From positions 1 through 25,798 of the IMG/VR virus record IMGVR_UViG_3300009320_000107: a stretch of 25,798 bases of DNA; one strand, written 5' to 3'. This document shows, piece after piece, positions 4,783 to 8,884 of the stretch; position 1 is the first letter of the stretch; every line of letters starts with the position of its first letter. This DNA comes from a virus. The translations under genes were made by a program, and so were the position numbers. The notes under the pieces are model-generated. The model was not told the DNA's origin. It saw nothing but the letters and a program-made list of their open reading frames with translations, and made no database searches.

Positions 4783-7173
4783 TTAAGTATATTTTTCCTC
4801 GTCTTCTTGGAATTTCGTGATTCTTGGTGGCATAAGATATAATTTGCGATCTTTATAATGGAATATTCCATGTTCAATGAAGCCGGTTACAGGTCTTTGT
4901 GTTATCACAGCTTCTTTAGTAGAGCCAGTCCATTCAGCTATTCTTTGTTTAACTGAGTGTCTAAGAGCACCAGGTTTAATCTTTTTACTTATACCTGCTT
5001 GTTCTTGAACTAATGAGGTAAGCTCTTTAAGAGTAAAGAGAATGTGTGGGTTAGGGTTAATAGGATTCTTACCAGATCGTGTAATATAATCCAAAGTAAA
5101 AGGATGCTTCCAATCAAACATTTCGTCCAAAATAAAGTCTGCATCTGAACCAGCGAAAAAGCCAGATGATAATCTATTGGTCAAGGCTTCCTGAGACTTG
5201 GATAAAGTCCAAAGTGTCGTAGACGAAGGATTTTTACTAAGGTCTGCTTTAAGCTCGGTGAGCCATTCTGCCCAGAGTTGTTGCATATTTATTTTTAAAA
5301 GAGCAGAAGTATCAATGTAACTGAGAGGCAAAATGGGAGTTCTTCGATTTCCAAACCTAGAAAGGTTAAAAGTATCACTATTAGAACTACCGATGAGAAT
5401 ACATCTTCTGGGGAATATTTTTGTTTGTCTCCCATAGGGTAACCTCACATATATTTTATCATTAGAGATTAAAGCTTTAAGGGCTGAACTTTTGTCGCCT
5501 TTAAGCTGGTTATCAATTTCTTCTATTTCCACAATGGCATATCTTATAAGTTTTAATTCCACATCTTTACGATTCCACTTCTCTGTTACTCCTTCTGATA
5601 TAACTCCAAAGTAATTCTTGCCAAGCTCAGGGCCTAAGAGAAGTCGAATAAAGGTGGATTTATGAATAGCTTCAGGACCCTGGAGTATAGGCATTAAAGT
5701 ATCTTGTTGGAAAGGTCCTTGATATTGAAATGATTTCAGTAACTGCATACAAGCTTTCTTTAAGACCTGATTGAAGAAGTCTGCATGCTTCTCAAAAGCC
5801 CGCTGATATGTAAATATCTTAAAGAAATCTCTTTCTATGGACTTACCTTTAAAAGGTTCGGATGTAATCCATTCATATATAGGATTATAGACATTCCAGG
5901 TTGCATTCATATGAGCTCGGAAGAACTCAGTAGCATGTTTAAAAGGAAGTGGTGGAGCCGAAGGATACTCGTTCTGAACATAAGTGTAATTGAATAACTC
6001 AAGTTCTTGGGTTGTATATAATTCCCCTTCTTTCATTCCTTGACGACGCCAATGTTTCTTCTTAACATCTTTATCACCTTTAATCCTGAAATGTCCCTCC
6101 ATATAAGAGTTCTGTTCAAATGAGAGGTTATGATAATCTATTAATGCAGAATAATTATTTATGTGCTTAATCACATGACCTTTGCTATCCTGTATAGGCC
6201 AGTCCATCTTACATATCTCAGCATACATCTGAACTGTCTTATATGACACAAATGTTTTATCTTTGGCCGGGTCATAAGAATCCCATTTTGCTTTTACAGC
6301 ATCAAAACCAGTTAATCCGGCTGAATCCTTTTCATCATATGAACCAGAAGTATCTTGTTGACTCCAAATATCTAAAAGTCCGAGACCATCTGTGCCAGAT
6401 ATGTTATTCCTGGAGCAATAGTCTTTTACGGAACATATTATCTTATTCCAGAAGTCATAAGAATCATATCCTTGTTTCTCAAATCCTTCATAAGCTCGAA
6501 TAATTCTAGGGTTCGGCCAAGGGGACAGATTCCTTAACATCTCAGTTAATTCTTTAATCCCTCCATGAAACGCTGTAGCAGGTTGCTGGTATGGTATCTT
6601 AGCATCTATGACTTCAGCTTTCTTTAATGAGGGGATTAATTTAGCTAATTCCTGGAATGTGATCTCTGCGATATATGGTGTAGATAGATCAGGATGAGGA
6701 TTGTTAGTGAATATCACAAATCCTTTCTTCACATAAATCTCACCTGTGAACTCCTCTTTCACTTTCTTTATGTTGAACGGCCATTGTTTCTTATCCTTCA
6801 CTTTATAATGTAAATGCAAACCTTTCCCTGACTTAGTCTTCTCTATATAAGTGGGAATGTGTTCTATTAAATCAATGGCTTGAGGAGTAAGGTTTTTCAT
6901 CGCGGATTTATGAGACCCTTCAGAAGCTACATCAAGGTCCACTATCACATATGGATGACTCGACCTAAACACCATCCCAACATACTGGGTTGCAGAACAG
7001 GCTTTATAAGCGTCCTGAAATGTCTTTGGTTTCCAATTCGGTTGCTTAGTCCAGTTAGGAGCTGCACCTCGATTTAGTTGGGTTTCTATCCAGTTATCAC
7101 ATTCTAATAGTTCCGTAGGGATGTTAAATACATTAGGAGCAATCGGTTTAACGAAAGCATTTGGAGCCATCAT
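4783..7173 (-). CDS. Replicative primase-helicase (AEP-like primase domain plus SF3/VapE-type ATPase)
   Basis: 796 aa. The N-terminal half looks like an archaeo-eukaryotic-type primase/prim-pol: D79-L-D81 (motif I), S115-G-K-G-L-H120-L-H122 (motif II) and EIYVKKGFVIFT (about 145-155). A middle part (about 210-320, WSQQDTSGSYDEKD) resembles the primase C-terminal helical region. The C-terminal half is a VapE/DUF5906-like helicase: Walker A G499-x5-K505-S-T507 (with H504 where a glycine is usual), Walker B IVEIEE (547-552), sensor N598, and arginine finger candidates R606/R610/R611. It would make primers and unwind DNA at the phage origin. AAGGA precedes ATG 7173. It lies 11 bp after the HTH gene stop, same operon. 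Confidence 0.88.
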   Translation of the reverse strand: MMAPNAFVKPIAPNVFNIPTELLECDNWIETQLNRGAAPNWTKQPNWKPKTFQDAYKACSATQYVGMVFRSSHPYVIVDLDVASEGSHKSAMKNLTPQAIDLIEHIPTYIEKTKSGKGLHLHYKVKDKKQWPFNIKKVKEEFTGEIYVKKGFVIFTNNPHPDLSTPYIAEITFQELAKLIPSLKKAEVIDAKIPYQQPATAFHGGIKELTEMLRNLSPWPNPRIIRAYEGFEKQGYDSYDFWNKIICSVKDYCSRNNISGTDGLGLLDIWSQQDTSGSYDEKDSAGLTGFDAVKAKWDSYDPAKDKTFVSYKTVQMYAEICKMDWPIQDSKGHVIKHINNYSALIDYHNLSFEQNSYMEGHFRIKGDKDVKKKHWRRQGMKEGELYTTQELELFNYTYVQNEYPSAPPLPFKHATEFFRAHMNATWNVYNPIYEWITSEPFKGKSIERDFFKIFTYQRAFEKHADFFNQVLKKACMQLLKSFQYQGPFQQDTLMPILQGPEAIHKSTFIRLLLGPELGKNYFGVISEGVTEKWNRKDVELKLIRYAIVEIEEIDNQLKGDKSSALKALISNDKIYVRLPYGRQTKIFPRRCILIGSSNSDTFNLSRFGNRRTPILPLSYIDTSALLKINMQQLWAEWLTELKADLSKNPSSTTLWTLSKSQEALTNRLSSGFFAGSDADFILDEMFDWKHPFTLDYITRSGKNPINPNPHILFTLKELTSLVQEQAGISKKIKPGALRHSVKQRIAEWTGSTKEAVITQRPVTGFIEHGIFHYKDRKLYLMPPRITKFQEDEEKYT

Positions 7174-7184
7174 AGTAGTTCCTT

Positions 7185-7406
7185 TTAAATGGGAGTTTTA
7201 TTCTCGACCAAAGGAAGAGGTTGTACATTAGACAGTTGCGATAATAATCTTCTATTGTACCTTTCTTTGTTGGTTACTTTGAGCACTCGAATGTATCCAT
7301 AGATGACTGGTTTGGAAAGGCCTGTTATTCTGGATATTTCAGCACCTGTAAAATGGCATTTCCACAATTCTGTGATTTCATTTATCTTTTGTTCTGTAAG
7401 TTTCAT
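7185..7406 (-). CDS. Small helix-turn-helix DNA-binding protein
   Basis: 73 aa. The core INEITELWKCHFTGAEISRI followed by TGLSKPVIYGYIRVL is a resolvase/Hin-type helix-turn-helix; the basic stretch NKERYNRRLL follows. ATG 7406 is chosen because AAGGA lies 5 bases upstream and because the promoter at 7434-7462 excludes the longer frame (to 7442). It is the first gene of the leftward early operon, directly before the primase, a usual place for a phage regulator or origin-binding protein. It is a candidate for the factor recognising the TCTACAAAYGTAGA elements at 7471-7508 and 8800-8833; this is inference. Confidence 0.75.
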   Translation of the reverse strand: MKLTEQKINEITELWKCHFTGAEISRITGLSKPVIYGYIRVLKVTNKERYNRRLLSQLSNVQPLPLVENKTPI

Positions 7407-7433
7407 TGTGTCCTTTCTCATTGTTTCATTATC

Positions 7434-7462
7434 ATTATACACTGTTGAAACGTAAAAGTAAA
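7434..7462 (-). promoter_or_regulatory. Main early leftward promoter
   Basis: Minus-strand TTTACT (-35, 7457-7462), 17 bp, TATAAT (-10, 7434-7439), with CAGTG directly before the -10. Predicted RNA start near 7427, about 20 bases before the HTH gene's ATG. Two copies of a shared upstream element lie behind it (7471-7508). Confidence 0.8.
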
Positions 7463-7470
7463 CAATAAAG

Positions 7471-7508
7471 ATCTACATTTTTTGTATATGATCATCTACA
7501 TTTGTAGT
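7471..7508 (-). promoter_or_regulatory. Tandem upstream element at the early promoter
   Basis: Read on the minus strand there are two direct copies of CTACAAAYGTAGATGA-like sequence: a clean CTACAAATGTAG at 7507-7496 and a weaker one with two extra bases at 7487-7472. The same tandem pair, in the same orientation to the promoter, precedes the late promoter at 8859 (8800-8833). Distances to the -10 are 68 and 48 bp here versus 58 and 38 bp there, one helical turn apart. Confidence 0.7.
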
Positions 7509-7521
7509 ATGGGTTGATTTA

Positions 7522-7816
7522 TGTGTGGTTAAAAAGGTACAAGAAAAGCTGAAGGGTACGAAAGAGTACCCCTTCATCAAATGAATTGTGTAATAAAATC
7601 AGTATGTTATGGCTCAAAAGTACAAAAGTACGGATTTTTGATACTTTTCCTAAACTTACTTAAGGGGGGTCCTTTTGGCGTGTACTTTATATTTTTCTTA
7701 TATTTTTGTACTTTTGTACCTTTTAGTCATAACATACTGATTTTATTGAATATACGTTTTTTGTAAAAAGTACAAATCAAATCAGCAAAAAAGTTTCGTA
7801 CCTTTTTTACCACACA
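7522..7816. repeat. Large quasi-palindrome with clustered GTAC motifs
   Basis: Inner arms 7592-7631 and 7708-7747 match as inverted repeats in 37 of 40 positions. Outer arms 7522-7540 and 7798-7816 match in 18 of 19. Both pairs share the same centre near 7669, so the whole is one diverged palindrome of about 295 bp. Ten GTAC tetramers, mostly flanked by A/T runs, lie within it (7537 to 7801), against about one expected. A smaller hairpin (GAAGGGTAC with GTACCCCTTC) is at 7551-7575. The region is AT-rich and has no convincing gene. A replication origin or multi-site regulator target is possible. Confidence 0.75.
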
Positions 7817-7848
7817 AAAATGACCGAATTAACTCTTTTGGTCGTGCT

Positions 7849-7937
7849 AGCCACAACGTCCACCTTGCCAAGCTGGATGACAGCCGCAACTTCCATTTTG
7901 CTAAGCTGGATGACAGCCACAACGTCTGATTTGCCAA
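7849..7937. repeat. 33-bp tandem repeat (2.7 copies)
   Basis: Units at 7849-7881, 7882-7914 and a partial 7915-7937. Units 1 and 2 differ at 5 of 33 positions, and AAGCTGGATGAC at the end is identical. The unit is a multiple of three and stays open on both strands. On the minus strand a 51-codon frame (7962 to 7807, ATG inside the terminator stem) would encode two 11-residue repeats (KSDVVAVIQLS, KMEVAAVIQLG) and part of a third, but it lacks a ribosome binding site. No plus-strand start was found. It may be a minisatellite or a remnant of a repeat-coding gene. Confidence 0.7.
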
Positions 7938-7949
7938 TAAATGAGAGAA

Positions 7950-8005: not shown

Positions 8006-8287
8006 CTAATAGGTCCAATCTTCAAGAAACTTTTGACCTTTAGAATTTGTTGCAATACTGTAACCATCTTTTTTCAAGTAACATAGTTGAGAACTCACAT
8101 TCTTATTGGAAATGTTAAGTTCTTCAGCAATGTCATAGATTTCAGTAGGTTCTCTCTCAAGAATTGCCAAAACCTCTTCTTTCCTTCCAGGACCTGTTTT
8201 GGTTCTGCCTGCTTTAAGTTTGGCATTCTCAATCATTAGTGTCTCCACCATTTCGTTCAACTCTCTAATTGTTCTTTGATACATCAT
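8006..8287 (-). CDS. Winged-helix regulator with N-terminal coiled coil
   Basis: 93 aa from the first of two adjacent ATGs (8287 or 8284); AGGTGGAG precedes them. The frame opens upstream to a TTG at 8344, which lacks a ribosome binding site. Residues 1-27 form a leucine-rich helix (RTIRELNEMVETLMIENAKL), probably for dimerisation. Residues about 35-92 form a winged helix (EVLAILEREPTEIYDIAEEL, then NVSSQLCYLKKDGYSI). The domain resembles the N-terminus of the 158-aa early protein (shared SQ-x2-YL core). The gene stands alone, with its own promoter and terminator. TACCAC dyads lie against its -35 (8381-8395) and in its leader (8302-8316), suggesting self-control; the same dyad is repeated in the array upstream. 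Activator versus repressor cannot be told. Confidence 0.78.
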   Translation of the reverse strand: MMYQRTIRELNEMVETLMIENAKLKAGRTKTGPGRKEEVLAILEREPTEIYDIAEELNISNKNVSSQLCYLKKDGYSIATNSKGQKFLEDWTY

Positions 8288-8301
8288 ACTCTCCACCTTT
8301 C

Positions 8302-8316
8302 CACCACTTTGTGGTG
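8302..8316. promoter_or_regulatory. TACCAC-type dyad in the regulator's leader
   Basis: CACCACTTTGTGGTG: perfect 6-bp arms with a 3-bp centre, immediately upstream of the regulator's ribosome binding site (complement of 8291-8302). Probable autoregulatory operator. Confidence 0.7.
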
Positions 8317-8352
8317 CCTTATGTTTGATTGAGATTATTCTCAACCAATTAT

Positions 8353-8380
8353 AATATAGTCATTGATTTGAAAATGTAAA
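8353..8380 (-). promoter_or_regulatory. Promoter of the winged-helix regulator
   Basis: Minus-strand TTTACA (-35, 8375-8380), 16 bp, TATATT (-10, 8353-8358), with AATGAC before the -10 as in the other early promoters. A dyad (8381-8395) touches the -35. Confidence 0.65.
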
Positions 8381-8395
8381 TACCACAAAGTAGTA
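8381..8395. promoter_or_regulatory. TACCAC-type dyad abutting the regulator's -35
   Basis: TACCACAAAGTAGTA, one mismatch from a perfect dyad. Its edge is directly adjacent to the -35 box, so a bound protein would contact or block RNA polymerase. Confidence 0.65.
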
Positions 8396-8447
8396 CTTGT
8401 GAAAATAATTATCATTCTTATTATGAATGGGATTCATTGTAAGTACA

Positions 8448-8696
8448 TACCACTTTGTGGTTATATACCACTATGTAGTATGGCCATACTATACACCACC
8501 ATGTGATATACCACAATGTAGTGGAGCCACAACATTTGGTTATATACCACGACGTGGTGTACCACAGTGTGGCCAAGCCACAACCATTGGTGATAGTGCC
8601 ACATCGTGGTGTACCACATTATAATAGTACATCAGACTTTGCCTCACCATACCACAACGTGGTGCCGGCCCTGGGTGGTGGTACCACATTGTGGCG
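8448..8696. repeat. Array of TACCACNNNGTGGTR dyads with 51-53 bp period
   Basis: Dyads of 15 bp start at 8448, 8466, 8494, 8509, 8545, 8560, 8597, 8612 (left half only), 8650 and 8682; the three central bases vary freely. From 8494 they are arranged as back-to-back pairs 15 bp apart. Pair starts at 8494, 8545, 8597 and 8650 are 51, 52 and 53 bp apart, about five helical turns. A looser element (AGCCACAACATTTGGT, AGCCACAACCATTGGT) fills the same place in the first two units. A perfect 16-bp palindrome (8476-8491) overlaps the second dyad. No gene is credible here. Candidate operator array, iteron-like origin or packaging site. From 8697 to 8799 I see nothing definable. Confidence 0.85.
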
Positions 8697-8799
8697 GGAA
8701 ATCGGTACGTAGACAAGGGCCCAGGGGCAAGATTTCGTGTCCACACACGCGGGAACGTTCATTTCACATATGCGCAAAGTTAAAATGATAAAAACCCCG

Positions 8800-8833
8800 T
8801 CTACAAATGTAGATGACCTTCTACAAACGTAGA
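8800..8833 (+). promoter_or_regulatory. Tandem upstream element at the late promoter
   Basis: Two direct copies 20 bp apart: TCTACAAATGTAGA (8800-8813) and TCTACAAACGTAGA (8820-8833), each followed by TGAC. Each is also an inverted repeat. They end just upstream of where the -35 box of the late promoter should be. The same pair occurs upstream of the early promoter (7471-7508). Confidence 0.75.
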
Positions 8834-8835
8834 TG

Positions 8836-8864
8836 ACTAAAAGGCTTTACAAAGCATATATAAT
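8836..8864 (+). promoter_or_regulatory. Late rightward promoter with weak -35
   Basis: A consensus -10 TATAAT (8859-8864) has only ACTAAA at 17-bp spacing (8836-8841) as -35. With two protein-binding-type repeats centred near -44 and -64, this looks like an activator-dependent promoter for the virion operon. The RNA would start near 8870. Confidence 0.55.
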
Positions 8865-8884
8865 GTGGTATGATGGTATTAATA

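Follow-up and report, generated by a model that had tools for sequence, protein, structure and literature searches.

An intergenic element at positions 7517-7821 of an uncultured phage contig, which combines ten GTAC-centered iterons with two nested pairs of inverted arms, is probably a replication origin or the main initiator-binding part of one, judging from its organization and from similar arrays in other phages. The contig analyzed here, to which we refer as the window, is IMG/VR virus record IMGVR_UViG_3300009320_000107, positions 1-25,798 (~25.8 kb). Replication origins are known for a minority of environmental phages only; if our assignment is correct, it provides a candidate origin and a candidate initiator for an uncultured phage lineage with almost no sequenced relatives.

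The window carries a tailed-phage gene set arranged in two divergent blocks. The leftward block encodes the thymidylate synthase ThyX, a dCMP deaminase, a DUF2800 exonuclease, a 796-aa primase-helicase and a small helix-turn-helix (HTH) protein, and the rightward block, from ~8870, encodes the terminase, portal, capsid and tail proteins. The GTAC element sits in the divergent control region between these blocks. The relevant features are as follows.

4783-7173, minus strand: primase-helicase, 796 aa, the proposed initiator (PF05272, E=2.8e-24; PHROG DNA primase/helicase families; PDB 7pds VapE, E=1.5e-7)
7185-7442, minus strand: first gene of the replication operon, encoding a small HTH protein of 85 aa, or shorter if an internal ATG is used (weak HTH matches)
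7428-7516, minus strand: leftward promoter TTTACT-17-TATAAT (7462-7434) with a CTACAAATGTAGAT site ahead of it
7517-7540, plus strand: outer left arm, with the iteron at 7537 and one GTGGT half-site (TGTGTGGT); 22/24 complementary to 7798-7821
7537-7801, no strand assigned: array of ten GTAC iterons, consensus AAARGTACRAA (10 versus 1.3 expected)
7592-7631, plus strand: inner left arm, with the iterons at 7620 and 7628 (8-bp phased GTACAAAAGTAC); 37/40 complementary to 7708-7747
7632-7707, no strand assigned: 76-bp core between the inner arms, the proposed melting site (70% AT, 92nd percentile of the window)
7708-7747, minus strand: inner right arm, with the iterons at 7708 and 7716; 37/40 pairing with 7592-7631
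7798-7821, minus strand: outer right arm, with the iteron at 7798 and also ACCACACA; 22/24 pairing with 7517-7540
8302-8696, no strand assigned: a further array located between the winged-helix ORF and the terS-like gene, with 13 sites resembling TACCACNNNGTGGTA; it scores highest of all hexamer arrays in the window (log10P -13.1)

The sole close relative of the window is a second IMG/VR contig, 99.4% identical over 12 kb, in which the GTAC element is base-for-base the same, so that the element is not the product of a single assembly error. A primase search of GTDB genomes returned no close relatives, a DNA-level search of the phage collection gave no match to the window, and searches with the portal, exonuclease and terminase led to distant phages only; no relative at an intermediate distance emerged.

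The N-terminal part of the primase-helicase is prim-pol-like, an assignment made through PHROG primase matches (residues ~17-190), the Pfam Prim-Pol model not being reached, and residues 466-664 form a VapE-like SF3 helicase domain (E=2.8e-24). The C-terminus is possibly a winged-helix domain; because AlphaFold predictions of the initiator and of its C-terminus came out at pLDDT 31 and 38, we treat the DNA-binding domain as putative. A single small gene, the HTH gene, separates the primase-helicase from the GTAC array. A winged-helix ORF is located at 8006-8344, and small HTH genes flank the element on both sides; the terS-like ORF begins 1 kb from the element. The cumulative GC skew reaches its minimum at ~8-9 kb, in support of an origin in this region, although the direction of transcription also switches there and the two effects are inseparable at this place.

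A previous sequence-only reading had described the element as a 295-bp palindrome with ten GTAC motifs where about one would be expected. The excess is genuine: ten copies are found in 295 bp versus 1.3 in dinucleotide shuffles, and the highest count in 5000 such shuffles was six. Two further properties had been missed. The GTAC sites extend to the iteron-like sequence AAARGTACRAA, and they are oriented: all five in the left half (7537, 7556, 7566, 7620 and 7628) read forward and four of the five in the right half (7682, 7708, 7716 and 7798) read in reverse, the remaining one (7770) being forward. The post hoc motif AARGTAC occurs eight times within the element versus eight times in the other 25.5 kb (log10P -12.8). 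Iterons are found both inside and outside the arms, and one of them (7682) falls inside the 76-bp core. GTAC-N4-GTAC bears a resemblance to a LexA-like box.

Both arm pairs were recovered in our analysis. The inner pair, with the 37/40 matches given before and a spacer of 76 nt, is the top inverted repeat of the whole window (score 31 versus 13 for the best elsewhere), and the outer pair, formerly given as 18/19, is contained in the longer 22/24 pairing. Folded as single-stranded DNA, the element has z = -8.3, and none of 100 shuffles was as stable. It is also AT-rich (70% versus 60% for the window), intergenic except for an unsupported 61-aa mechanical ORF at 7581-7766, and adjoined by the HTH and primase-helicase genes, in agreement with the previous description as AT-rich, non-coding and close to the primase-helicase operon. 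Other parts of that description have to be amended. The two pairs do not share one center near 7669, their centers being 0.5 nt apart (inner, 7669.5; outer, 7669.0), and the weaker similarity proposed to exist between the arms is at the level of chance, with 16 of 51 positions of 7541-7591 pairing versus 13.3 expected (P=0.23, inner register). The element therefore consists of two nested arm pairs and is not a continuous 295-bp palindrome. An Rfam search yielded eukaryotic miRNA families only, far below threshold, and these were rejected.

An origin of replication, a cruciform and the target of an unknown protein had all been considered for this element. The first of these is favored by arrays in other phages, and the second has a precedent in the stem-loop origin of pRN1. 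We scanned 14 whole phage genomes blindly, recording the hexamers most strongly over-represented per 300 bp. Nine of the genomes encode VapE-type and five RepA-like self-loading primase-helicases, and the latter include published relatives of the RepA-like helicase that accompanies one group of GTAC arrays. The top array lies within 400 bp of the primase-helicase gene in 7 of the 14 genomes, and an array among the top three does so in 10; the combined distances of the top arrays to the helicase gene give Fisher P = 8e-8, a somewhat optimistic value because phages XX1924 and PB15 are closely related and the array of Murka falls within coding sequence. In three of the 14 genomes (PM116P6, BD166P1 and MW202475), there is no array beside the primase-helicase gene. 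Short-iteron arrays thus adjoin self-loading primase-helicase genes far more often than expected by chance. If this association reflects origin function, it translates into a simple rule: looking next to the gene for a self-loading primase-helicase for the strongest array of short repeats would yield a candidate origin for the majority of the 14 phages.

The hexamer changes from phage to phage (GGTACA, GGTTCA, GGGACA, GGATAC, AAGTAC and others). Among phages with RepA-like helicases, Idiomarinaceae phage 1N2-2 has 12 GTAC in 300 bp (as GGTACA), starting 11 bp past the helicase stop codon, Alteromonas phages XX1924 and PB15 have 12-13 GGTTCA at the same place, and CGphi29 has a GGGACA array beside the helicase. 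The VapE phages show GGATAC x10 (phiFL4A), CACCCC x9 or, when scored locally, GGTCAC x8 (PS3), CTTGTC x6 (AB1), GTAACA x5 (Emery) and GCACCC x11 (SFCi1). The iteron letters vary with the helicase, as expected of initiator-specific iterons, and, if the arrays are origins, such variation would allow the DNA-recognition code of the initiators to be studied. In Shewanella phage SFCi1, which encodes a VapE protein resembling that of the window, the layout is the same: inverted arms with iterons and, between them, an AT-rich stretch come first, followed by a small HTH gene and the primase-helicase. The array is upstream of the helicase operon in the window and in SFCi1, whereas most comparison phages have it immediately downstream of the helicase gene.

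Candidate origins are also present in the cultured phages 1N2-2 (L138, 34213-34420), XX1924 (L137, 24241-24540) and PB15 (L139, 19701-20000), as dense arrays of GGTACA or GGTTCA immediately behind the RepA-like primase-helicase genes. A separate observation concerns the record of Aeromonas phage phiWae15 (L149), in which CCTGCC is repeated 24 times within the 300 bp at 56721-57020, close to the end of the record.

We also examined GTAC itself as a potential phage signal by searching IMG/VR with a pattern of two GTAC-W4-GTAC pairs that are 61-91 bp away from each other. This pattern matched 57 contigs, which fall into 23 groups; most matches were intergenic clusters containing 7-19 GTAC, and the phages concerned are unrelated. 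The control pattern built on TGCA was nearly as common (43 contigs, 24 groups), and the notion of GTAC arrays as a universal phage signal was therefore rejected. The median number of copies per match was 10 for GTAC versus 7 for TGCA, and 50 of the 57 GTAC matches versus 25 of the 43 TGCA matches lay outside long ORFs. Dense arrays of some short palindrome, not always the same one, are present in many phages. The numbers for VapE enrichment among the GTAC contigs (2/42 versus 0/42) were too small to use, and tallies of neighboring families were uninformative as a test of origin versus packaging because terminases and primases occur in both sets. One match, locus L044, closely resembles the element in design, with ten GTAC in 296 bp and inverted arms that are nested; it comes right after the gene for a VapE-domain primase-helicase and before terS/terL. 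L044 was found with the GTAC pattern and is therefore not independent in motif or spacing. L061 encodes a prim-pol/PriCT-2/VapE protein. In viral contig L049, twelve GTAC (1915-2180) come straight after a DUF927/Cch-type helicase gene, likely representing a SaPIbov1/SCC-type origin in a phage. An arm spacing of 65-91 nt was seen in 4 of 10 phages not selected by the pattern; a fixed spacing across phages is only suggestive.

From the ten iterons, arranged as two inverted sets around an AT-rich core beside the HTH and primase-helicase operon, we infer the following course of initiation at the GTAC element. The AEP/SF3 (VapE-type) self-loading primase-helicase would bind the AAARGTACRAA iterons via its C-terminal domain, and two hexamers would load head to head across the 76-bp core, a geometry suggested by the two iteron sets facing each other. 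The core would then melt, with extrusion of the 40-bp arms as a possible aid. Priming by the prim-pol domain would follow, and two forks would depart, one leftward via the replication operon and the other rightward via the late genes. Several observations count against an origin at this site: the array lies upstream of the operon, unlike those of most comparison phages, the TACCACNNNGTGGTA array is the stronger of the two as a hexamer array and could be the origin instead, and three of the 14 scanned genomes have no array beside the gene.

The nearest known analogues are the origins of SaPI/PICI, P4, pRN1 and SCCmec. An AT-rich region with a set of iterons on either side is a constant feature of PICI origins (PMC6092414). 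SaPI Rep is described as binding iterons beside its own gene through its C-terminal domain (Ubeda et al., as cited in PMC7581432), and SCCmec Cch2 has been shown to do the same (PMC7581432). In common with the origins of the P4/SaPI/PICI type, the window has multiple short specific repeats in a non-coding stretch, two iteron sets around an AT-rich region (the 76-bp core, 70% AT) and an adjacent gene for an initiator helicase of the SF3/D5/VapE type. The SaPI/PICI origins, however, lie directly downstream of rep (or Pri-Rep), whereas the GTAC array is upstream of the HTH-primase operon, and we therefore do not file it as a SaPI/PICI origin but only as an element that would work like one. The iteron sequence is also different, the arms in the window are long and well matched, and binding, proven for SaPI/PICI, is a prediction for the window. 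The resemblance to SCCmec Cch/Cch2, where the C-terminal domain of the helicase binds repeats beside the gene (PMC7581432), is offset by a different helicase family and by the presence of only three iterons in the SCCmec site; the DUF927-Cch helicase of L049, directly followed by its GTAC array, is a relative of SCCmec Cch. P4 alpha is likewise a fusion of a primase with an SF3 helicase and, as described in PMC4234260, binds origin repeats with a winged-helix domain. The P4 primase is of the Toprim type, whereas that of the window is prim-pol-like. P4 has two distant sites, ori and crr, that carry the same iteron, and P4 is not known to have a 40-bp palindrome.

With its AEP-SF3 protein, pRN1 requires a ~100-bp stem-loop, and a stem-loop origin without iterons has also been proposed for phage BIP-1, with AEP-SF3-winged-helix replication proteins (PMC4234260). 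The window shares with pRN1 the AEP primase joined to an SF3 helicase, the co-transcribed small regulator gene ahead of the replication gene (orf56 in pRN1) and the large stem-loop near the replication gene, with 40-nt arms and a 76-nt loop compared to a 21-nt stem and a 58-nt loop in pRN1. The pRN1 stem-loop, in contrast, lies downstream of the gene and pRN1 lacks iterons, whereas the window has ten, some of them in the arms. The iteron-origin principle is already known, and what differs here is most likely the combination of two separately described designs. That the element indeed joins a pRN1-type stem-loop with inverted iteron sets of the P4/SaPI/PICI type is a tentative proposal, which we consider possible but rather doubtful. 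Should it hold, such arrays would constitute a general and predictable class of origins in tailed phages that encode self-loading primase-helicases, the members differing only in their iteron letters, according to the initiator.

The second array (8302-8696) has to be weighed against the GTAC element. Twelve of its sites are within two mismatches of TACCACNNNGTGGTA and one has three, compared to a single site within two mismatches elsewhere in the window, and each site is a symmetric 15-mer. This array may act in replication, as an alternative or additional origin or as a second site, or it may be an operator or serve packaging. Its strength as a hexamer array is an argument for regarding it as the origin proper and the GTAC palindrome as a secondary (P4 crr-like) replication site or a regulatory site; furthermore, each outer GTAC arm carries one ACCAC/GTGGT half-site, hinting at a common protein. 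We nonetheless consider this arrangement unlikely: the array is separated from the primase gene by 1.3 kb and lies beyond another gene (8006-8344), symmetric 15-mers are typical of dimeric regulators, and the only long inverted arms in the window belong to the GTAC element.

Flanked by operons that diverge from it, with small HTH genes on either side and a good leftward promoter (7462-7434) downstream of it, the GTAC element is also placed as would be expected of a transcriptional control region in which the HTH (7185-7442) or winged-helix (8006-8344) protein binds GTAC and controls the early and late operons. The promoters, however, already have sites of their own. CTACAAATGTAGAT is present at the leftward promoter in one clear copy (7492) and one degenerate copy (~7471), the rightward promoter (8846-8874) has paired CTACAAATGTAGATGA sites at 8800/8820, and the CTACAAATGTAGATGA sites adjoin the -35 boxes of both outward-facing promoters; a separate regulator therefore probably controls transcription. 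In addition, the GTAC array starts ~75 bp upstream of the -35 box and spans 265 bp, and ten sites with long arms are unlike the usual operator. A purely regulatory role thus appears quite improbable. The promoter-associated sites, CTACAAA(T/C)GTAGATGA, span 7471-7516 and 8797-8836 and immediately precede the -35 box at each of the divergent promoters, with two exact copies at the right promoter and one clear plus one degenerate copy at the left; they are likely activator or repressor sites common to both promoters.

Recognition of the GTAC element by the small terminase subunit, as a pac or cos site, might be suspected given that the terS-like ORF starts 1 kb away and that many IMG/VR contigs with GTAC arrays have terminase genes beside the array. 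When terS is separated from the helicase in other phages, however, the array stays with the helicase: in XX1924 and PB15, terS is 5.5 and 6.3 kb from the helicase and the array abuts the latter, and in 1N2-2, a MazG gene stands between the array and terS. The arrays follow the helicase gene rather than terS. In the window, moreover, the 8302-8696 array is closer to the terS-like gene, and a packaging site at the GTAC element is very unlikely. The nested inverted repeats with near-perfect outer ends are superficially compatible with a MITE-like relic with terminal inverted repeats, or a chance palindrome, but either is highly improbable: apart from the near-identical relative, the end sequence has no other copy in 2.9 million IMG/VR viral contigs, no target-site duplication is visible by eye in the flanks, iterons occur inside and outside the arms, and chance is excluded by the GTAC shuffles, the folding z and the window-wide inverted-repeat scores.

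Other repeats are present in the window. Three tandem 33-bp repeats (AGCCACAACGTCCACCTTGCCAAGCTGGATGAC) occupy 7849-7947, with the palindrome on one side and a strong terminator hairpin, leftward in orientation (7986-7953), on the other. A tail-fibre-like ORF at the contig end (25481-25798) contains TAETAQTAAETAETN-type repeat runs encoded by CAGCAG-rich DNA.
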